From Aurantiacibacter aquimixticola (lineage in GTDB: Bacteria; Pseudomonadota; Alphaproteobacteria; Sphingomonadales; Sphingomonadaceae): a stretch of DNA of 64,000 nt. This document shows, one piece after another, positions 21,810-30,561 of the stretch. The position numbers and the translations under genes were made by a program. The DNA lies in assembly GCF_003605475.1 (NCBI RefSeq), contig NZ_RAHX01000001.1, forward strand, positions 1,674,001-1,738,000. Direction: 5' to 3'. Below the pieces are notes generated by a model that saw only the letters and a program-made list of their open reading frames with translations, was not told where the DNA came from and did not search any database. Position 1 is the first letter of the stretch, and the number at the start of each line of letters is the position of its first letter.

Positions 21810-21838
21810 TTGACCCTCGAGTCCCGCTGTGGGATTCT
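21810..21838 (+). promoter_or_regulatory. Candidate sigma-70 promoter for ftsK
   Basis: TTGACC at 21810-21815 is followed after exactly 17 bases by GATTCT at 21833-21838. The -35 matches well and the -10 weakly. Transcription would start about 27 bases before the ftsK ATG. A GTCCC/GGGAC-type inverted repeat lies just downstream in the short leader. This is based on visual match only. Confidence 0.4.
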
Positions 21839-21870
21839 CCGTCCCGGGACGCAGACGAAAGGGATCGATC

Positions 21871-24216
21871 ATGGCCACGCGGGCCGCAAATCAGGGCGCG
21901 GATTGGAAGGCGGCCTTCCGCCGCTCGCTCGCGCGGGCGAGCCAGCTGACAGGCGCGGTGCTGCTTTACGCCTTCACCGCCTTCCTCGCCATTGCTCTCA
22001 TCAGCCACAGCCAGACGGACCCGTCGCTCTCCACCGCAGCGGGAGACGTGGTCGACAACTGGATGGGCAAGCCCGGTGCCTTCGTCGCCGATCTCGCGCT
22101 GACCGGCTTCGGTCTCGTAGCCGTGCTGTTCCTTCCCCTCACTTATGTTTTCGCCCGCAAGCTCTGGCGCGATGCCGATGAGGACGAGCAGTGGGGCGGC
22201 GCGTGGTGGCGCACGGTCGCGCTGATGCTGCTCGCGATGGCGCTGCTGGCCATCGTCCTCTCGCTCGTCACGTCCCCGCGCGAATGGAGCCTCCCTGCGG
22301 GCACGGGCGGCCTTGCGGGGCTTCTCGGCGACGCGGGCATCCGCGCGCTTGCCGGACTTCTGCCCGAAGCCGCGCGCTTCTGGGCGATTCTTGCCGCCGG
22401 CATCGCCGCGCTTATCGGCGGAGCCGCGCTGGCGGGCCGGGTGCTGGCGCTCGACTGGGCGAGCCTGCTCACGATACCCGACTGGATCCGCAACCGCCCG
22501 CAGCTTGTCGCCCCGGCCAATCCGTTCAAGCCCGAAAAGCCGCGCAAGTCCCGGCGCAAACCCGATATTTCCGCGCAGGACAATGACGGGGATGCGCCCG
22601 ACAATCCGCTGGCCAAGCGGGCTCCGCCGACGATCAGCGATGCCGCTGCGCCGCCGCGCCGGGCGAAGCCTGCGGCCAAGGCTGCGCAAAAGGACATGTT
22701 CGCCGATTACGATCTGCCGAGCATCGAATTGCTGGAAGAAAATGGCGCCGACAATGCGCCGCCGCTCGACAAGCTGGCGCTCGAACGCAACGCTCGTCTC
22801 CTTGAAACCGTGCTCGACGATTTCAACGTCAAAGGCGAGATTACCGCGGTAAAGACCGGCCCGGTTGTCACCATGTACGAACTGGAACCCGCCGCGGGCA
22901 TCAAGGCCAGCCGCGTGGTCGGCCTGGCCGAGGATATCGCCCGCAACATGTCGGCGATCAGCGCCCGCGTCGCGCCGATCCCGGGCAAGACGGTAATGGG
23001 CATCGAATTGCCCAATGCGGACCGGCAGATGGTGTCTTTTCGCGAACTGGTGGAAAGCGAAGCCTTCGTCGGCTCGAAGGGCGGGCTGCCGATCATTCTC
23101 GGCAAGGGCATTTCAGGCGATCCGATCGTCGCCGATCTTGCTGCCATGCCGCATCTGCTGGTGGCGGGCACCACCGGATCGGGCAAGTCGGTGGGCCTGA
23201 ATGCGATCCTGCTGTCGCTGCTCTACCGCTTCACGCCCGCCGAGTGCCGCCTGATCCTGATCGATCCCAAGGTGCTCGAACTCAAGAGCTACGACGACAT
23301 CCCGCACCTCCTCGCTCCGGTGGTTACCGAGCCGCACAAATCGGTACGCAGCCTGAAATGGGCGGTGGAGGAAATGGAGCGCCGCTATCGCATGATGAGC
23401 GAGATCGGCGCGCGCAACCTCGGCGGTTTCAACGAGCGGGTCGCGGCCGCCGCCGCCAAGGGCAAACCGCTCAAGCGCACGGTGCAGACCGGTTACGATC
23501 CCGAAACCGGCGAGGCCGTGGTCGAGGAGAAGGAACTCGATTACGAGGTGCTGCCGCAGATCGTGCTGATCGTGGACGAACTCGCCGATCTGATGGTCAC
23601 CGTCGGCAAGGAAATCGAGGTGCTGATCCAGCGCCTCAGCCAGAAATCGCGCGCGGCGGGCATCCACCTCATCATGGCGACGCAACGCCCATCGGTCGAT
23701 GTCATTACCGGCGTCATCAAGGCGAACCTGCCCACCCGCATCAGCTTCAACGTCACCAGCCGGATCGACAGCCGGACGATCCTGGGCGAACAGGGCGCGG
23801 AGCAGCTGCTCGGCAAGGGCGACATGCTCTACAAGCCGAACACCGGCGCGCTGAAGCGCGTGCACGGGCCGTTCGTGTCCGACGAGGAAGTCGAAAAGGT
23901 CGCCGATCACTGGCGCGGCCAGGGCGAACCCGCTTACGTCGACAGCGTGACCGAAGAGCCGGAAGACGGCGGCTTCGGCTTCGAAGACGAATTCACCGCG
24001 TCGGACAATCCCGAGGAGCGCAAATACCGCCAGGCGATCCAGATCGTGTGCGAGAACCAGAAGGCGAGCGGCAGCTGGCTGCAACGCCAGCTCGGCATCG
24101 GCTACAACACGGCGGCGAAGCTGATCGAGCGGATGGAAAGCGACGGCATTGTCGGTCCGGCGAACCATGTCGGGCGGCGGGAGATTTTCCGGGACCGGGA
24201 CGGGAATCCGATTTGA
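21871..24216 (+). CDS. ftsK: DNA translocase FtsK
   Basis: A 781-residue septal DNA pump that moves chromosome termini during division and activates XerCD. Four N-terminal membrane helices (about residues 20-210) are followed by a Pro/Ala/Lys linker and the alpha domain. The RecA-like motor has Walker A GTTGSGKSVGLNA, Walker B LIVDELADLM (near base 23570) and LIMATQRPSVDVITG. The C-terminal gamma winged helix that reads KOPS sites is intact (SWLQRQLGIGYNTAAKLIERM). The ATG at 21871, with AAAGGGA upstream, is preferred over the frame start at 21829. Confidence 0.97.
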   Translation: MATRAANQGADWKAAFRRSLARASQLTGAVLLYAFTAFLAIALISHSQTDPSLSTAAGDVVDNWMGKPGAFVADLALTGFGLVAVLFLPLTYVFARKLWRDADEDEQWGGAWWRTVALMLLAMALLAIVLSLVTSPREWSLPAGTGGLAGLLGDAGIRALAGLLPEAARFWAILAAGIAALIGGAALAGRVLALDWASLLTIPDWIRNRPQLVAPANPFKPEKPRKSRRKPDISAQDNDGDAPDNPLAKRAPPTISDAAAPPRRAKPAAKAAQKDMFADYDLPSIELLEENGADNAPPLDKLALERNARLLETVLDDFNVKGEITAVKTGPVVTMYELEPAAGIKASRVVGLAEDIARNMSAISARVAPIPGKTVMGIELPNADRQMVSFRELVESEAFVGSKGGLPIILGKGISGDPIVADLAAMPHLLVAGTTGSGKSVGLNAILLSLLYRFTPAECRLILIDPKVLELKSYDDIPHLLAPVVTEPHKSVRSLKWAVEEMERRYRMMSEIGARNLGGFNERVAAAAAKGKPLKRTVQTGYDPETGEAVVEEKELDYEVLPQIVLIVDELADLMVTVGKEIEVLIQRLSQKSRAAGIHLIMATQRPSVDVITGVIKANLPTRISFNVTSRIDSRTILGEQGAEQLLGKGDMLYKPNTGALKRVHGPFVSDEEVEKVADHWRGQGEPAYVDSVTEEPEDGGFGFEDEFTASDNPEERKYRQAIQIVCENQKASGSWLQRQLGIGYNTAAKLIERMESDGIVGPANHVGRREIFRDRDGNPI

Positions 24217-24226
24217 GTAGAGCGGC

Positions 24227-25483
24227 GTGAGGGTATGGCTGGGTCCAATCTTGGCGCTGGCGACTTGCGCGCCGGCTGCGCAAGCTCAGACCGCGACTGC
24301 GTCCGAGACAAGCATTGGCGACATTTTGCCGATGGTGCTCGACGATCAAATCATGCCTGCGCTGATCATACTCGAACAGATCATCGCGGAGGATGAGCGG
24401 GCGAGCCGGATCGGTGCGCAGTATTGGTCTTTAAGCGGTGATCTCGGAACCGCCGACGAGCTCTGGGTGCGTACCGTTGACCCCCCGTCCGGTGCGTTGC
24501 CAGACCTGTCGCAAGCACAGCCGATGCCTGCGATAGAAGAGATCGTACGCCAATCTGCAGGCAAGCGTGTGGTAATTATCAACGAAGCACACCACTCGCC
24601 GCGTCATCGCGCGTTCACGCACCACTTGATGCTCGCATTGCGCGAAGAGGGCTTCACCCATTTCGCAGCAGAAGCCTTTTGTTCGGGAGCGCATTGTGGC
24701 TCGCTTTTAATGAACGGCGCTCCAATGGGAGGCGGAGATACAGGGTTTTATGTGATTGAGCCGGTATTCGGCGATCTCGCGAGGCAGGCGGGCGCTACCG
24801 GCTACAGTTTGGTCGGCTATGAAATGACGCCGGAGCAAAAAGCAAATGCAGGCGCAAATCCAGATATCGATTCGATGAACTTTCGCGAACTTGCGCAAGC
24901 CGAAAATCTCAAGGCGGCGCTCGATGCTGATCCGGACATGCGTGTGTTGATCCATGTGGGCTTCGGACACGTGGAAGAGAGCTTGCCAGAGCGGCCGCTG
25001 CATCTCTTTGCCGGACGGCTCAAAGAATTGACAGGTGAAGACCCGCTGACGATCGATCAGACTCTGGGAACCCCGCAACCGGGCAACCATGATAACCTGT
25101 TGTACCAGGCGTTTATGGAAGAATTTGGCGCTCCGTCATCGTCAATGGCGATTGCGTATGGCCAAGATCGGCCCTCAGGAATTTACCGTACAGACCTCAG
25201 TGTCTTTCATCCAGAGTCGCAGATGGTGAACGGGCGTCCCGATTGGCTCTCCATGACGGGTTATCGCAGATCGCATACCATCGCTCTTGAACCACTTAGC
25301 CAGCGGAGCTTGGTCCGTGCTTTTCTCGTTGGCGAGCCTGCTGGAGCGGTGGCGATGGACCAGATGCTGACGAACCCAAATGCCGATGCCGTTACACTGA
25401 TGCTGCCGCGTGGCGAATACAGGTTGATGCGTCAGAACGAGGCGGGCGACAACATACCTCTCGGAAGTGTCAGCATCGACTAG
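24227..25483 (+). CDS. Unrecognised exported protein, Tiki/ChaN-like in part
   Basis: A 418-residue protein with a signal peptide (MRVWLGPILALATCAPAAQA). The central part has VVIINEAHHSPRHRAF followed by a helix and THFAAEAF, and later VLIHVGFGHVEE. The spacing of an acidic residue and histidines before a helix, with a second His motif, is reminiscent of ChaN/Tiki/EreA-type folds, but the match is weak and I would not assign a function. The base composition is visibly lower in G+C than the flanking genes, with many A/T-ending codons, suggesting transfer or relaxed selection. A GTG start follows ftsK by 10 bases. Confidence 0.6.
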   Translation: MRVWLGPILALATCAPAAQAQTATASETSIGDILPMVLDDQIMPALIILEQIIAEDERASRIGAQYWSLSGDLGTADELWVRTVDPPSGALPDLSQAQPMPAIEEIVRQSAGKRVVIINEAHHSPRHRAFTHHLMLALREEGFTHFAAEAFCSGAHCGSLLMNGAPMGGGDTGFYVIEPVFGDLARQAGATGYSLVGYEMTPEQKANAGANPDIDSMNFRELAQAENLKAALDADPDMRVLIHVGFGHVEESLPERPLHLFAGRLKELTGEDPLTIDQTLGTPQPGNHDNLLYQAFMEEFGAPSSSMAIAYGQDRPSGIYRTDLSVFHPESQMVNGRPDWLSMTGYRRSHTIALEPLSQRSLVRAFLVGEPAGAVAMDQMLTNPNADAVTLMLPRGEYRLMRQNEAGDNIPLGSVSID

Positions 25484-25517
25484 CCCCGCCATGCACATCG
25501 TGCTTTAAGCGTCGCCG

Positions 25518-25976
25518 ATGAACACCAAACGCGAAATGCGCATCGTCGGCTGGCGCGAGCTGGTCGAATTGCCGGAGCTCGGCCTCAGCGGCATACCCGC
25601 CAAGATCGACAGCGGGGCGCGCACGTCCTCGCTTCATGCCGAACTGCTCGAGGAATTCGAGCGGGACGGCGAGCGCTTTGTGCGTTTCTGCGTAGACTGG
25701 GGCGGGGAGAGGCACGAATGCGAGGCGGTGCATGTCGATATTCGCGGCATCACCAGTTCCAATGGCGAAACGCAGCGCCGCTACGTCATCAAGACGCCGC
25801 TGAAGATCGGCACGCTGACATTCCGCGCGGAAATCAGCCTGGCCGATCGATCCGACATGAAATTCCCGATGCTGATCGGCCGGTCGTCTCTGCGCCGCCG
25901 CTTCGTCGTCGATTCCGGCCATAGCTGGCTGCAGACCCCCGGCAAGGCGCCGGTCAAAGGACACAAACCGGTATGA
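25518..25976 (+). CDS. RimB-like 'ATP-dependent zinc protease' family protein (retropepsin-like)
   Basis: A 152-residue protein of the family annotated as putative ATP-dependent zinc protease (RimB/RloA2-type). It starts with a strand-rich region, and [13 protein letters not shown] places Asp31-Ser-Gly-Ala in the position of the aspartyl-protease DT/SGA active loop; FVVDSGHSW near the end is typical of the family. The fold is therefore predicted to be retropepsin-like. These genes usually accompany ATP-grasp ligases, as here: the stop overlaps rimK by 4 bases (ATGA). A role in trimming or regulating peptide tags made by the ligase is a reasonable inference. Confidence 0.85.
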
Positions 25977-26878
25977 AAATCGCAATGCTAGCCCGCAATC
26001 CTAATCTCTATTCGCACAAGCGACTGGTGGAGGCTGCGGAGGAACGCGGTCACACACTCGATATTCTAAATACCACGCGCTGCACGGTGAATATCGCCAG
26101 CCATCGTCCGACGCTCACTTATAATGGCGAAACTCTGTCGGGTTACGAAGCGGTGATCCCTCGCATCGGCGCGTCGATCACGAATTACGGCCTTGCCGTG
26201 CTGCGCCAGTTCGAAATGAGCGGTGTGTGGCCGCTCAATGAAAGCGTCGCCATCGGCCGCAGCCGGGACAAGCTGCGGAGCATGCAGATCCTCGCCAAAT
26301 ACGGCCTCGGCCTGCCGCTGACAGCCTATGCCAATGACCCCAAGGCGGCCGAAGAGATCATCAAGGCCGTGAATGGCCCACCCGTGGTCATCAAGCTGCT
26401 CGAAGGTACGCAGGGCATCGGTGTCGTGCTCGCCGAAACGATGAGCAGCGCGAAATCGGTGATCGAGGCGTTCCGCGGCGCGAACGTCAACATCCTGGTG
26501 CAGGAATTCATCAAGGAAGCGGGCGGCACCGATATCCGCGCGCTCGTCGTCGGCGGGAAAGTCGTGGCGGCGATGAAGCGTACCGGCGCGGCGGACGACT
26601 TCCGTTCCAACCTGCATCGCGGTGGCAGCGCGCAGCTTATCAAGATCACGCCGGAGGAACGCTCCACCGCCGTGCGCGCGGCCAAGCATATGGGCCTCAA
26701 CGTCTGCGGTGTCGATATGCTGCGATCCAATCATGGGCCCGTAATCATGGAGGTGAACTCCTCCCCCGGCCTCGAAGGGATCGAGAAAGCGACCGAGAAG
26801 GACGTTGCCGGCACGATCATCGACTACATCGCCGCCAACGCGAAGGCGGGAGCGACCAAGACGCGCGGCAAGGGATAA
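25973..26878 (+). CDS. rimK: RimK family ATP-grasp alpha-L-glutamate ligase
   Basis: A 301-residue ATP-grasp ligase of the RimK group, which adds glutamate residues to the C terminus of ribosomal protein S6 or makes poly-alpha-glutamate. The N-terminal domain (about 1-95) precedes the ATP-grasp core with [36 protein letters not shown] and the Mg-binding [15 protein letters not shown] near residue 265. Length matches RimK. It is translationally coupled to the retropepsin-like gene in front and followed, after about 100 bases, by a beta-barrel protein, a 7TM protein and another ATP-grasp enzyme. Confidence 0.93.
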
Positions 26879-26979
26879 CCCGTAGCCCGCGCAAACCCTT
26901 TCGCTTTAGGGTTAGCGTTTCCTAAACCACTCGCTCCGTAATGGCCCTGAGGATGAACGGGGCCGCCATCATTTCCGCC

Positions 26980-27891
26980 ATGTCGCGCAAGCTTGCGCCT
27001 GCGATTGCCGTGCTTGCGTTGTTTGGCGCGCCAGCGGCGGCGCAGGATGCGCTTGAGGTCGATCCCTATGCCCGGCTCGAAACTGGCATCGTCCTGTCCG
27101 AAAGCGCGGACCGCGAGGACGATCTCATCATCAATGGCAATGGCGGCTATCTGCGCGGACAGATCGGAATGGATTTCGATCTGGCCGACACGAAGCTGCG
27201 ACTGGAGGCCGACCGTATCGAGGTCCAGCGCTTCGACAGCGCAACGGGGCGGGGTAGCTTCAACCGGGACCGGCTGACGGCCGCGATCTCTCATGAGATC
27301 GGCGAGGATTGGGAAGTCGAGCTGGGCGGACGCATCTATGACGATCTCGTCACCGTCGAAGCGGCCGATACGGACGAACGCCAGGTCTCTCTGCAAGTCG
27401 AATACGAGCCTGTGCGCGCACATCGCTTTCAGCTTCGCGGCACTTGGCGGGATCGCGAATATGATGACGGAGAAGGCGTGGATGGCGCATCCTCCACCGG
27501 AGACGGCCCGCGCGTCGATGCGGGATATCGCCTTCGCATCGGGCGCTATCACTATGTAAATGTCGATCTGCGCGCCGAAGAGATCGGTTCCGCCAATCCA
27601 CGCCGCGCTTACACGCGTGAAAGCGTGAGCGCGTCCTACACCCGGCCGATCACCTCGACGCTTCGCGTGCGCCCGGCTGCGGAGCTACGCCACAGCCGTT
27701 TCGATGGACGCATGACCGATGCGCTGGAAGCGCGCGAAGACACGCAATTCGTGCCCGAAGTCGAATTGCTGTGGTGGCCGGGCCGTTGGCGGGTGGAGGC
27801 AGAGGCGAAATACCTCTTCTCCAGCAGCAATGACGCTTTGCGAGAGCGTGAAGGATACCGCTTCAGCCTGAGCGTCGGTTATGTCTTCTAG
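26980..27891 (+). CDS. Predicted outer-membrane beta-barrel protein
   Basis: A 303-residue exported protein. From the ATG at 26980 it has a clean signal peptide (MSRKLAPAIAVLALFGAPAAAQ); earlier in-frame ATGs at 26941 and 26953 add an odd N-terminal extension. The mature part consists of repeating amphipathic strands with alternating charged and aromatic or aliphatic residues, for example RLEADRIEVQRFDS and YHYVNVDLRAEE. It ends in a terminal strand finishing ...SVGYVF, the aromatic C-terminal residue expected for BAM-assembled porin-like barrels. No family is recognised. Its stop overlaps the 7TM gene by 11 bases. Confidence 0.75.
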   Translation: MSRKLAPAIAVLALFGAPAAAQDALEVDPYARLETGIVLSESADREDDLIINGNGGYLRGQIGMDFDLADTKLRLEADRIEVQRFDSATGRGSFNRDRLTAAISHEIGEDWEVELGGRIYDDLVTVEAADTDERQVSLQVEYEPVRAHRFQLRGTWRDREYDDGEGVDGASSTGDGPRVDAGYRLRIGRYHYVNVDLRAEEIGSANPRRAYTRESVSASYTRPITSTLRVRPAAELRHSRFDGRMTDALEAREDTQFVPEVELLWWPGRWRVEAEAKYLFSSSNDALREREGYRFSLSVGYVF

Positions 27892-29095
27892 GTGGTGGCG
27901 CAAATGGCGCTTGTCCCGCTGGCGAAAATTCCAGCGCGTGATGGCGAAGGCTACGCCGCAGGTAAAACGGCCCGCCCTGCTCGGCGCGGCCGTTTTCGGC
28001 GTGATCGGCCTGCTCGCCGCGCTCGGCATCTCGAACACCACCAATGTCTGGTATATGCCGCAATCTCAGGGGGAGACGGCGGTGTCCTTCCAGGTGTGGG
28101 GCATGCGTCCGTCCAACCTGCTGATGGCGCTGCCGATCGGGGCTTTCCTCGTGGTGCTGGCGCGCAGTTTCGTGGGGATGAAGGCGTTCGGGCTGTTTAC
28201 GCCCATGCTGATCGCCATCGCCTTCCTGCAGATCGGCCCGATCTTCGGACCGATCGTGCTGGGGTCGGCCGTCGGCGTCGGCATGCTGGTCGCGCCATTG
28301 CTGCTGAAGCTACACATGACGCGCGTGGGTTTCCTGGGCGTGTTGATCAGCTTTGTGGTGTTCGTGCTCGCCGGTCTGCAGGTGGTGCTGAACACCGAAT
28401 TGCAGGTCGATGCCTTTCCGGTGGTGGTGACTGCGCTGGTGGTCGAACGCTGGTATCGCCAGTGGGAAAGGGATGGCTGGAAGGAAGCCGCCTGGATTGC
28501 CGGAAGCACCTTCGTGCTCGCGCTGATGATTCAGTTCGTGATGGTCAGCCGGGTTGCCCTCACCCTTATCGAAATCTCGCCTCTGGTGCTGCCCGGTTTC
28601 GCCGGTCTCGCGATCGCGCTGCTCGGCCGATATCGCGGGCTGCGCCTGTCGGAAATCAAACGCTTCGCCCCAATCTGGCTGGAAGGAAGACGCAATGCTC
28701 GGATTCGTGAAATGGTTCAGGAAGGAGCAAAGGCAGCAGAGCTCGATCCTGTCGAGTCAGATTTCGATGCTGGCTTCGGAGGAGACGCCCTCGACGCTGC
28801 CCCTGCGCCCGTCCCGGCGATCGAGAGCGCGAAGAAAATTTTCGCGCTTCGCCCGCTCCCAGTATTTCCGGAACCGCTTTTCGGGCGTGCGTTTGCGTTC
28901 GCCGGTGCCCAGGGTGGGGGACCTGGACGAGATTCTCGGCATCAACCAACGCAACGCGATTATCGCGAAATACAATCCGCGCTCGGCGATCGAGGAAGCG
29001 CGGGACAAAGTGGCGGCCAAGGTCGCCTTAAACGCCGGCGGCGTGACAACCACGGGCACGATCTGCGTAATCTCCAGCTATGGCGACCTGCTTGA
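27881..29095 (+). CDS. 7TM protein of the transglutaminase-7TM family, lacking the transglutaminase domain
   Basis: A 404-residue frame whose conserved part is residues about 30-265. One membrane anchor (34-51) is followed by a six- to seven-helix bundle starting ETAVSFQVWGMRPSNLL and ending RYRGLRLSEIKRF (255-262). This matches the 7TM half of proteins annotated as inactive transglutaminase fused to 7 TM helices, but the roughly 250-residue periplasmic transglutaminase-like domain expected between anchor and bundle is absent. The frame stays open after residue 272 and runs 401 bases across the next gene in a different frame; that tail has weaker codon bias and may be spurious. The real stop may be lost or shifted. 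Confidence 0.75.
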   Translation: MSSRWWRKWRLSRWRKFQRVMAKATPQVKRPALLGAAVFGVIGLLAALGISNTTNVWYMPQSQGETAVSFQVWGMRPSNLLMALPIGAFLVVLARSFVGMKAFGLFTPMLIAIAFLQIGPIFGPIVLGSAVGVGMLVAPLLLKLHMTRVGFLGVLISFVVFVLAGLQVVLNTELQVDAFPVVVTALVVERWYRQWERDGWKEAAWIAGSTFVLALMIQFVMVSRVALTLIEISPLVLPGFAGLAIALLGRYRGLRLSEIKRFAPIWLEGRRNARIREMVQEGAKAAELDPVESDFDAGFGGDALDAAPAPVPAIESAKKIFALRPLPVFPEPLFGRAFAFAGAQGGGPGRDSRHQPTQRDYREIQSALGDRGSAGQSGGQGRLKRRRRDNHGHDLRNLQLWRPA

Positions 29096-29780
29096 TTTCG
29101 ATCCGGTGCGCGACCTGCCGGAAAGCTGGGCAATCAAGCCCGCGCGTGGCAGCCAGGGCGACGGTATCCTGCTCGCCCTGCGACGCGAGGGAAACAACTG
29201 GTTCAAGGGTTCCGGCACGAAGCTGACGCCGACCGACGTGATGAACCACCTGCGCCGCATCGTCGATGGCGGCTTTTCGGGCGACGGCGCAGCGGAAGAC
29301 GCGGCACTGATCGAGCCGCTGATCCGCGCCGACAAGCGCATTACCCAGCTTGTGCCGGAAGGCCTGCCCGACGTGCGGGTCATTTCCCTGCGCGAGCATC
29401 CGCTTATGGCGATGATGCGTATCCCCACCAACGCATCGGATGGGAAGGCCAACCTTCACCAGCGCGCCATCGGCGCCGCGGTCGACATCGAAACCGGCAT
29501 CATCACCCGCGCCATGTGCGTGGGCGAGGAACTGACGCATCACCCCGACTCGGATGCGCTGCTGATCGGCTTCACCGTGCCCGAATGGGACCGCGTGCTG
29601 GACATCAGCTCGAAATGCAGTGCCGCCATCGGTCTCGGCTATCTCGGCGTCGATATCATCCTGGACGAAAATGACGGCCCGATGGTGCTTGAGGTGAACG
29701 CCCACCCCGGCATCGAAATCCAGAACATCAACCAGAAGGGCCTGCGCCGTCAGATGATCCTGGCTGGCGAGAAGATGTGA
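28695..29780 (+). CDS. Alpha-L-glutamate ligase-like ATP-grasp protein
   Basis: A 361-residue ATP-grasp enzyme of the family found next to the 7TM/transglutaminase protein. The conserved region starts at LGINQRNAIIAKYNPRSA (residues 81-98) and contains the lysine-bearing WAIKPARGSQGDG, an insertion of about 60 residues, and the metal-binding MVLEVNAHPGIEIQNIN near the C terminus. Residues 1-75 are an Arg/Ser-rich extension that I do not know from the family. The ATG at 28695 has a good ribosome site (GGAAGGAAG). It probably joins amino acids to a peptide or small molecule; the substrate is unknown. It overlaps the convergent hydrolase by 53 bases. Confidence 0.87.
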   Translation: MLGFVKWFRKEQRQQSSILSSQISMLASEETPSTLPLRPSRRSRARRKFSRFARSQYFRNRFSGVRLRSPVPRVGDLDEILGINQRNAIIAKYNPRSAIEEARDKVAAKVALNAGGVTTTGTICVISSYGDLLDFDPVRDLPESWAIKPARGSQGDGILLALRREGNNWFKGSGTKLTPTDVMNHLRRIVDGGFSGDGAAEDAALIEPLIRADKRITQLVPEGLPDVRVISLREHPLMAMMRIPTNASDGKANLHQRAIGAAVDIETGIITRAMCVGEELTHHPDSDALLIGFTVPEWDRVLDISSKCSAAIGLGYLGVDIILDENDGPMVLEVNAHPGIEIQNINQKGLRRQMILAGEKM

Positions 29781-30561
29781 TCGCGCGCTCCGTCGCATCC
29801 AGAATGACCTGAACCGTCTCCTGCGGCTGATCCCACATCGGAAAATGTCCGCTATGTTCGAACCAGTGCAGCTCTGCATCGGGGAAGGCCGCCATGGCGC
29901 GTCGTGCCTGCTGGGGCAGACACAGCCGATCCTTTCGGCCCCATCCGATCACGATCGACTTCTGTGTGTCTGGAGGGCCCTGCTGGTTTGCACCGGTGCC
30001 GAGATCTTTCACAAGGGCATTGAATGTGCGGGTATCGGCAAAAGACCGCAATTCACCGGAAATAATTGCAGGATCGAGGGCCCACGGCCTTGCCGACAGC
30101 TGGGCCATCAGGGCGGTTCGCCCCGCGACATTCCTCAAGATCGTTGGAAGGGCCGGTCGCAGAGCCCGAACCAGACCGATGGATGCCGTTATGGTCGTTC
30201 TGAAGAAAGTGCGCTCCCACCCTTTCCAGAAACCACCCGGATCCAGAGCAACGACTGCGCCCGCACTTCCTCGCCGGGCCATTTCGAGGACGAGCCGGGC
30301 GCCCAGCGAGCTGCCCACCATATCGATCCCGCGCAAATCTTCTTCCGCGAGCCATGTGTGGAGGCTCCGCGCCAGACCGTCGAACGTGCCGCTGTCGTTC
30401 TCTTCGGGCGTCTGGCCATGTCCGGGCAAGTCCACGGCAATGACCTCCCTGACCTGCGATAGCTGAGGTGCGATCGTATCCCAGGAATGGCTGCTTCCCC
30501 CCAGCCCGTGGACAAGGAGAAGCGGTCGGCCGCGCCCGGCGCGCGTGTGGTGCATAGGCAT
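29728..30561 (-). CDS. Alpha/beta hydrolase
   Basis: A 277-residue cytoplasmic alpha/beta-hydrolase. The oxyanion block is LLLVHGLGGSSHSWD. The nucleophile elbow is VGSSLGARL (GxSxG, Ser near residue 86). The catalytic His is in WFEHSGHFPMWDQP near residue 240, with an Asp in GRKDRLCLP. The sequence resembles general esterase/lipase or haloperoxidase-like hydrolases; the substrate cannot be named. Its 3' end overlaps the ATP-grasp gene by 53 bases on the opposite strand, so the last 17 codons may be dispensable. Confidence 0.85.
   Translation of the reverse strand: MPMHHTRAGRGRPLLLVHGLGGSSHSWDTIAPQLSQVREVIAVDLPGHGQTPEENDSGTFDGLARSLHTWLAEEDLRGIDMVGSSLGARLVLEMARRGSAGAVVALDPGGFWKGWERTFFRTTITASIGLVRALRPALPTILRNVAGRTALMAQLSARPWALDPAIISGELRSFADTRTFNALVKDLGTGANQQGPPDTQKSIVIGWGRKDRLCLPQQARRAMAAFPDAELHWFEHSGHFPMWDQPQETVQVILDATERAITSSRQPGSSDGAGPSG

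Follow-up and report, generated by a model that had tools for sequence, protein, structure and literature searches.

The locus examined here raises the question of whether five adjacent genes make up one pathway or more than one. The genes occupy positions 25518 to 29780 of a 64,000-nucleotide stretch, hereafter the window, of the 2.55 Mb genome of Aurantiacibacter aquimixticola. In the initial annotation, they were described as five overlapping genes on the same strand that may encode a single tagging pathway. All five genes are real and located on the forward (+) strand, yet they are 2 units placed side by side, one consisting of rimB and rimK (unit 1) and the other of the genes for a predicted outer-membrane barrel, a seven-transmembrane (7TM) protein and an ATP-grasp ligase (unit 2, here called the trio). 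The trio is a real, conserved variant of the Rlo system, located beside the RimB-RimK unit but separable from it, and the barrel is a conserved partner of the 7TM protein and the ligase.

The partnership is evident from the relatives. We sampled 196 genomes from the order, and identified matches to PF14402, the family of the 7TM protein, in 14 genomes and relatives of the barrel in 22. A full-length short 7TM protein was encoded by 9 genomes, which were the same 9 that contained a barrel with at least 50% identity, always directly upstream. One genome, G143, contained a second trio, and the barrel was adjacent in all 10 of the full-length short-7TM loci in this survey. The other 5 PF14402 carriers were G151, G191, G002, G045, and G081. 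A full RloB was present together with a retropepsin and RloC in G191, whereas the 7TM matches in G002, G045, and G081 were larger or fragmentary, adjoined RloC and had no barrel match; G002 also contained a retropepsin match. The short-7TM gene fragment in G151 (locus L014, G151:C1:239457-239573), which covers 39 profile positions and has no barrel next to it, is probably a relic and was dropped from the count of 10. In a class-wide sample, PF14402 was matched in 19 of 385 genomes, and the only open frames shorter than 410 amino acids were those of the window genome, G025, and G012, the others being 464 to 854 amino acids long.

A scan of the GTDB species genomes with the 7TM profile yielded 69 named loci, 53 of which were of the trio type. 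Most of these carried the titles Erythrobacter, Porphyrobacter, Altererythrobacter, or Aurantiacibacter, and a few metagenome records were titled Sphingopyxis, Sphingomonadales, or Alphaproteobacteria. They were divided into clade A, with 44 loci (43 listed and the cut locus L153, which is absent from the A list used for the trees and was counted as a trio on the score of its ligase), and clade B, with 9 loci. In 51 of the 53 loci, the gene immediately preceding the 7TM gene was that of the barrel, and the contigs of the 2 misses (L137 and L153) start inside the 7TM gene. Since order and adjacency recur in relatives, the arrangement of the last 3 genes is more than chance. The initial annotation would have been refuted by a barrel that is seldom adjacent to the ATP-grasp and 7TM genes in relatives, and neither survey showed this. 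It was also noted that the candidate 7TM start overlapped the barrel stop by 11 nucleotides in 37 of the 51 loci (28 of 42 in clade A and 9 of 9 in clade B) and was located one base past it in the remaining 14. In the window, which has the 11-nucleotide overlap, the 7TM start falls inside the codons for the final Tyr-Val-Phe of the barrel.

Phylogenies were inferred for each of the 3 genes from 24 of the 43 listed clade A loci (23 for the barrel), all 9 clade B loci that the scan had yielded and 9 rows used as outgroup. In all 3 trees, clade A and clade B were each separated from the other sequences by a single branch, with support values of 98, 99, and 92 for A and 92, 99, and 100 for B, as obtained by a quick method with the Shimodaira-Hasegawa-like approximate likelihood ratio test (SH-aLRT) as the only support measure and with some long branches flagged. 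The paralogous second trio, which belongs to clade B, holds the same gene order, and both trios were present in five named assemblies (LNED01, JAPZRO01, JAMNXL01, JACESM01, and JAIEOM01) as well as in G143. Because the 2 clades were recovered in all 3 trees and some assemblies contain both, we conclude that the barrel went through the duplication together with the other 2 genes. The possibility that the barrel is a chance neighbor was rejected on the adjacency in the named loci and on the gene trees.

The rimB-rimK pair has another history of neighborhoods, and is separable from the trio. The rimB-like gene (25518 to 25976, + strand) encodes a retropepsin of 152 amino acids with a match of 109 bits to PF05618 (cutoff 27); the NCBIfam RimB model NF052261, the best of the 4 retropepsin models listed, gave 128 bits, which is under its cutoff of 200. 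No signal peptide was seen by eye. The gene overlaps by 4 nucleotides with rimK (25973 to 26878, +), whose product (301 amino acids) is an S6--glutamate ligase by type, with 401 bits for PRK10446 of NCBIfam (cutoff 331) and 215 bits for PF08443. The 2 genes were adjacent in all 10 genomes searched, namely G151, G191, and 8 trio genomes besides that of the window. They were located beside the trio only in the window and G025, corresponding to 2 of the 9 trio genomes in the survey, and in the other 7 they lay a long way from it or on a different contig. Among the 51 barrel-positive named loci, the pair was directly upstream of the trio in 4 (L103 to L106), and in L114 it was located about 3 kb away. 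We also examined 4 genomes of the same genus that lack the trio. An ftsK-rimB-rimK arrangement was found in G174 and G164, and rimB-rimK in G019, with no ftsK gene within the fetched stretch, while no close rimK was identified in G100. A conserved unit of all five genes was rejected on this separability.

The overlaps within the locus are likewise not uniform, since rimK is followed by a gap of 62 nucleotides (26879 to 26940, +). The gap can fold into a hairpin of -15.3 kcal/mol without a run of T residues, and the scan identified neither a terminator-like site nor a same-strand promoter-like site in it. In the region from 25400 to 29900, there was no terminator-like site and a single promoter-like site on the opposite strand, which did not exceed the shuffled sequences.

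These results bear on the pathway that was initially proposed, in which RimK and the second ligase would assemble or attach glutamate, RimB would trim it, the 7TM protein would move the product and the barrel would export or anchor it. The adjacency of all five genes in the window, G025 and L103 to L106 is consistent with such a pathway, as are the RimK-like genes and the ligase-PF05618 fusions that are each found in 6 of 9 Patescibacteria loci. It is at odds with the location of rimB-rimK elsewhere in 7 survey trio genomes and beside ftsK in the trio-less G174 and G164, with the gap that parts the 2 units, and with the lack of genetic interaction between a rimB deletion and RloA mutants in Pseudomonas, as reported in PMC12239564. 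We therefore do not favor a single tagging pathway of five parts, because RimB and RimK are not conserved partners and the secreted retropepsin and the transglutaminase of rlo are missing here, and we consider it quite improbable. RimB-RimK would instead be a unit of its own, of the type that modifies S6, which ended up next to the trio in part of the genus.

The gene content given in the initial annotation was otherwise upheld, by domain scans for all proteins but the barrel and by an AlphaFold2 model for the latter. The 7TM gene (27881 to 29095, +) encodes a protein of 404 amino acids with hydrophobic runs and an RloB-like membrane part, which matched positions 58 to 247 of the PF14402 profile with 98.6 bits (cutoff 25). 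This was its sole domain match in the domain scan, with no transglutaminase domain; the NCBIfam RloB model gave 64 bits against a cutoff of 900, and the 7TM profile had no sequence relative among solved structures. The RloC-like ATP-grasp ligase (28695 to 29780, +; 361 amino acids) matched PF14397 with 201 bits (cutoff 31.4) and TIGR02291 with 252 bits, under the cutoff of 314. It is the only PF14397 match in the window genome, and it keeps the residues common to RimK and other ligases, with 25 columns invariant across 7 rows. Plasmids were also searched with the ligase, which gave 6 records, none of which covered 80% of it.

The barrel gene (26953 to 27891, +) encodes 312 amino acids from the ATG at 26953, or 316 if translated from 26941, rather than the 303 residues given initially. 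The predicted structure has 14 strands, with a mean predicted local distance difference test (pLDDT) score of 87.8 and a predicted template modeling (pTM) score of 0.80 from an alignment of 54 rows, and the strands are preceded by an N-terminal helix that reads by eye as a signal peptide. No match to Pfam or NCBIfam exceeded the cutoff, all matches to outer-membrane proteins being below it. The outer-membrane protein family PF04338 (DUF481) matched 16 of the 54 aligned barrel relatives at E up to 0.01, and the window barrel itself had no match at that threshold. When the barrel profile was compared with solved structures, no relative was found at E up to 0.1, and the lone row was a flagellin (E 0.79). 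Among named records, those closest to the barrel come from Aurantiacibacter and Erythrobacter, which points to a placement in the Erythrobacteraceae.

The closest characterized counterpart of the last 2 genes is the rlo operon of P. aeruginosa, which encodes a secreted retropepsin, a 7TM protein with a transglutaminase domain and an ATP-grasp protein. According to PMC12239564, RloA cleaves polyglutamate in vitro, the transglutaminase domain of RloB is inactive, and a strain without all three RloA proteins regains full growth in low salt when RloB or RloC is also lost, its other defects being partly relieved; no genome-encoded candidate substrate for RloA was found by its authors. The rimB-like protein is the only PF05618 match in the window genome, and a second, RloA-like retropepsin was thus not present in the PF05618 search of that genome.

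Our preferred reading, to which we assign a probability of about 0.4, is that unit 2 is a variant of Rlo in which the product of the ligase would escape cleavage in the periplasm and exit across the outer membrane. The RloC-like ligase, located in the cytoplasm, would work at the inner face of the RloB-like 7TM protein and there build a chain of amino acids or add them to a carrier, glutamate being the most likely residue; the 7TM protein would then pass the product across the inner membrane. The transglutaminase domain and the secreted retropepsin are missing and the operon comes with a channel in their place, and for this reason the product is probably not trimmed but released via the predicted 14-strand outer-membrane channel. 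Where a retropepsin is secreted, as in Pseudomonas, the same product would be cut. The gene content of the trio, its conserved order and its joint inheritance were observed directly, whereas the barrel fold is a prediction, and the identity of the product, its carriage by the 7TM protein and its exit through the barrel are inferred. A fuller version of this scheme, in which a glutamate-type ligase has its own exit by way of the inner face, the 7TM protein and a dedicated 14-strand channel, so that channel and periplasmic retropepsin are alternatives for the same product in different lineages, is put forward tentatively and is rather doubtful.

Several observations weigh against an exit route. 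CymA and OmpG, the closest solved folds to the barrel model, are passive channels that admit sugars. For the 7TM protein, the assignment of its parts to one or the other side of the membrane is a guess based on charge. In the barrel, conserved charges of both signs line the inward face, with no clear path for a polyanion. A locus on a contig labelled Rubrobacter (L154) contains a 7TM gene and a ligase gene with no barrel in the 1.4 kb available upstream. Finally, 9 distant barrels (L051 to L059) adjoin a family of the response-regulator/Hpt type, a setting that suits sensing equally well. The 3 family members that were scanned were response regulators with Hpt or hybrid kinases, and in L058 and L059 the family is fused to a histidine kinase. 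A polyanion-selective pore was also considered and is not supported, the inward positions of the window barrel comprising 25 basic and 24 acidic residues. The mean inward net charge was +5.1 across 45 trio barrels and +10.2 across 9 distant barrels, with inward positions set by strand parity and not by coordinates.

An alternative is that the barrel is an entry channel for outside peptides or oligosaccharides, with the 7TM protein and the ligase handling or reporting the solute. The sugar-channel folds, the distant barrels beside the response-regulator/Hpt family and the TonB-receptor genes that are located close to some trio loci would fit such uptake or sensing. We nevertheless regard it as unlikely: ATP-grasp ligases spend ATP on joining amino acids, which fits poorly with uptake, the TonB receptors are missing from some of the loci, and no uptake gene accompanied the trio throughout.

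A further alternative, for which the same co-inheritance data speak, is that the barrel is a target or regulated partner, which the ligase and the 7TM protein modify or whose opening they tune, for example upon osmotic change, to adjust the permeability of the outer membrane. In PMC12239564, the rlo genes of P. aeruginosa affect low-salt survival and beta-lactam sensitivity, and the authors mention possible regulation of porins; disruption of an RloB-type gene in Shewanella increased the output of vesicles (PMC12096838). The ligase is, however, related to cytoplasmic enzymes while the barrel belongs to a different membrane, and a site of modification is not evident; moreover, Patescibacteria have 7TM-ligase pairs with no barrel, and other Alphaproteobacteria have them with RloA, so that regulation of the barrel also appears to be an improbable role. 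Compared with these alternatives, export of the ligase product is the reading that we retain.

The 16 named loci outside the trio type consisted of L154, 6 alphaproteobacterial RloB loci and 9 loci from Patescibacteria. The RloB loci had 7TM frames of 513 to 539 amino acids, with a retropepsin upstream in 5 and the sixth being cut. In Patescibacteria, a peptidase match with E up to 0.001 was present at the C terminus of all 9 ligase homologs; it was a PF05618 retropepsin in 6 (L162, L165, L166, L168, L169, and L171) and a PF08014 (MATCAP) peptidase in 3 (L163, L164, and L167), as assigned from residue ranges in L162, L163, L165 (just over the cutoff), L168, and L171 and from length in the others. 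Downstream of the 7TM-ligase pair, 6 of the 9 loci have RimK-like genes. None of the 9 had a barrel match, and their 7TM proteins differ in the outer part, with a PKD domain in L163 and none recognised in L168. TMCP1 (MATCAP) and TMCP2 take polyglutamylation off tubulin (PMC10499314). Fusion of the ligase to 2 peptidase families that both remove glutamate elsewhere strengthens the idea that residues added by RloC-type enzymes are removed again by a partner peptidase. The Patescibacteria loci give some independent support to a tie between retropepsins, RimK-like ligases and the 7TM/RloC pair. The 7TM protein and the ligase form the stable core, to which peptidase, outer domain and barrel look like interchangeable additions.

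Within the core, the 7TM and ligase frames overlap by 401 nucleotides in the window (28695 to 29095, +), and a comparable overlap is present in other Aurantiacibacter-type loci. A strong Shine-Dalgarno-like sequence, GGAAGGAAG, precedes the ligase ATG, and the G+C content by codon position favors the ligase frame from 28695 onward. The 7TM frame extends 166 nucleotides into the ligase core in the 7 loci with the tail pattern, out of 10 given, and a P-x-P-x-F-G motif is retained in it, as judged by eye. The fourfold-site difference in loci with the overlap was 0.361 in the first 55 core codons and 0.469 later (21 pairs), as compared with 0.464 and 0.481 in relatives without the overlap (45 pairs), the pairs not being independent. 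Judging from these sequence features, both frames of the overlap may be in use. The C-terminal tails of the 7TM proteins in L041 to L047 are proline-rich and contain, by eye, 2 short motifs that resemble each other, G-x-W-V-I-x-S-P-x-D-L and H-N-A-W-I-I-x-S-x-E-D-V, which are possible docking sites for the ligase.

Upstream of the five genes, the + strand contains an ftsK-like gene (21829 to 24216), an open reading frame named by similarity in the relatives' loci and by eye, not by a family scan, and a gene for a protein of 418 amino acids (24227 to 25483), so that the order is ftsK-like, 418-amino-acid protein, rimB-like, rimK, barrel, 7TM, and ATP-grasp. The trio follows an ftsK-like gene in many relatives. 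The 418-amino-acid protein has a weak, sub-cutoff ChaN/Tiki-like match, and no counterpart appeared among the genes given for the named relatives' loci.

The barrels of the 13 other barrel carriers in the order survey were 24% to 35% identical, with no 7TM match. In 4 loci (L060, L061, L062, and L063), the distant barrel is located directly downstream of a pair of genes for a P-loop protein (MobB/DUF1611-like) and an ATP-binding cassette (ABC) exporter. The P-loop family is also found upstream of three clade B trios (L144, L146, and L152), where the P-loop and ABC-like pair was present in 3 of 10 B loci, or 3 of the 6 with at least 3 kb of upstream sequence, and we keep this pair as a lead. 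A glycosyltransferase was considered as a partner of the clade B trio and rejected; it was not used as evidence because no more than 2 of the 10 B loci (L048 and L149) had the same family. On the opposite strand, a porin-like gene was located upstream of 8 of 10 B trios (L048, L144, L146, L147, and L149 to L152), with a Porin_4 match in L048, and beyond it were a sigma-factor-like gene in 3 loci (labelled by eye) and a second conserved gene in 5.

Among known systems, CymA and OmpG share with the barrel a monomeric 14-strand fold, which is here predicted; the identity is about 10% and the genetic partners differ, and the likeness in fold implies neither function nor descent. RimABK, as described in PMC11957791, resembles unit 1 only, by a rimB-like retropepsin that adjoins rimK with the 4-nucleotide overlap, and differs in that the RimB score is below the cutoff here and the ribosomal protein S6 (L180, G000:C1:992468-992731) ends in SDREDRN, with no glutamate run. 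The Patescibacteria loci (L162 to L169 and L171) have the 7TM gene followed by a PF14397 ligase gene, including a short 7TM protein in L168, but differ from the window in their peptidase-fused ligases, trailing RimK-like genes and lack of a barrel match. In the literature searched, which left most subscription papers outside, we found no description of a barrel with this 7TM-ligase pair. Like unit 2, the RloABC system has in one operon a 7TM membrane part of the RloB type and, after it, a PF14397 ligase, and the recurring theme of retropepsin, 7TM-transglutaminase and ATP-grasp genes recognized in the initial annotation is now described as the rlo operon (PMC12239564). Where Pseudomonas RloB has a transglutaminase domain, the window 7TM protein has none, and where Pseudomonas secretes RloA, the sole PF05618 match of the window genome is the rimB-like protein, with no signal peptide by eye; the co-inherited outer-membrane barrel of unit 2 is not described for rlo in that paper. 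A variant of Rlo in which a co-inherited channel replaces the transglutaminase and the secreted protease points toward a product that needs to be removed from, or dispatched beyond, the periplasm, and its presence in culturable marine bacteria, whose medium could contain the product, offers a concrete route to ask what Rlo makes and where the product goes.

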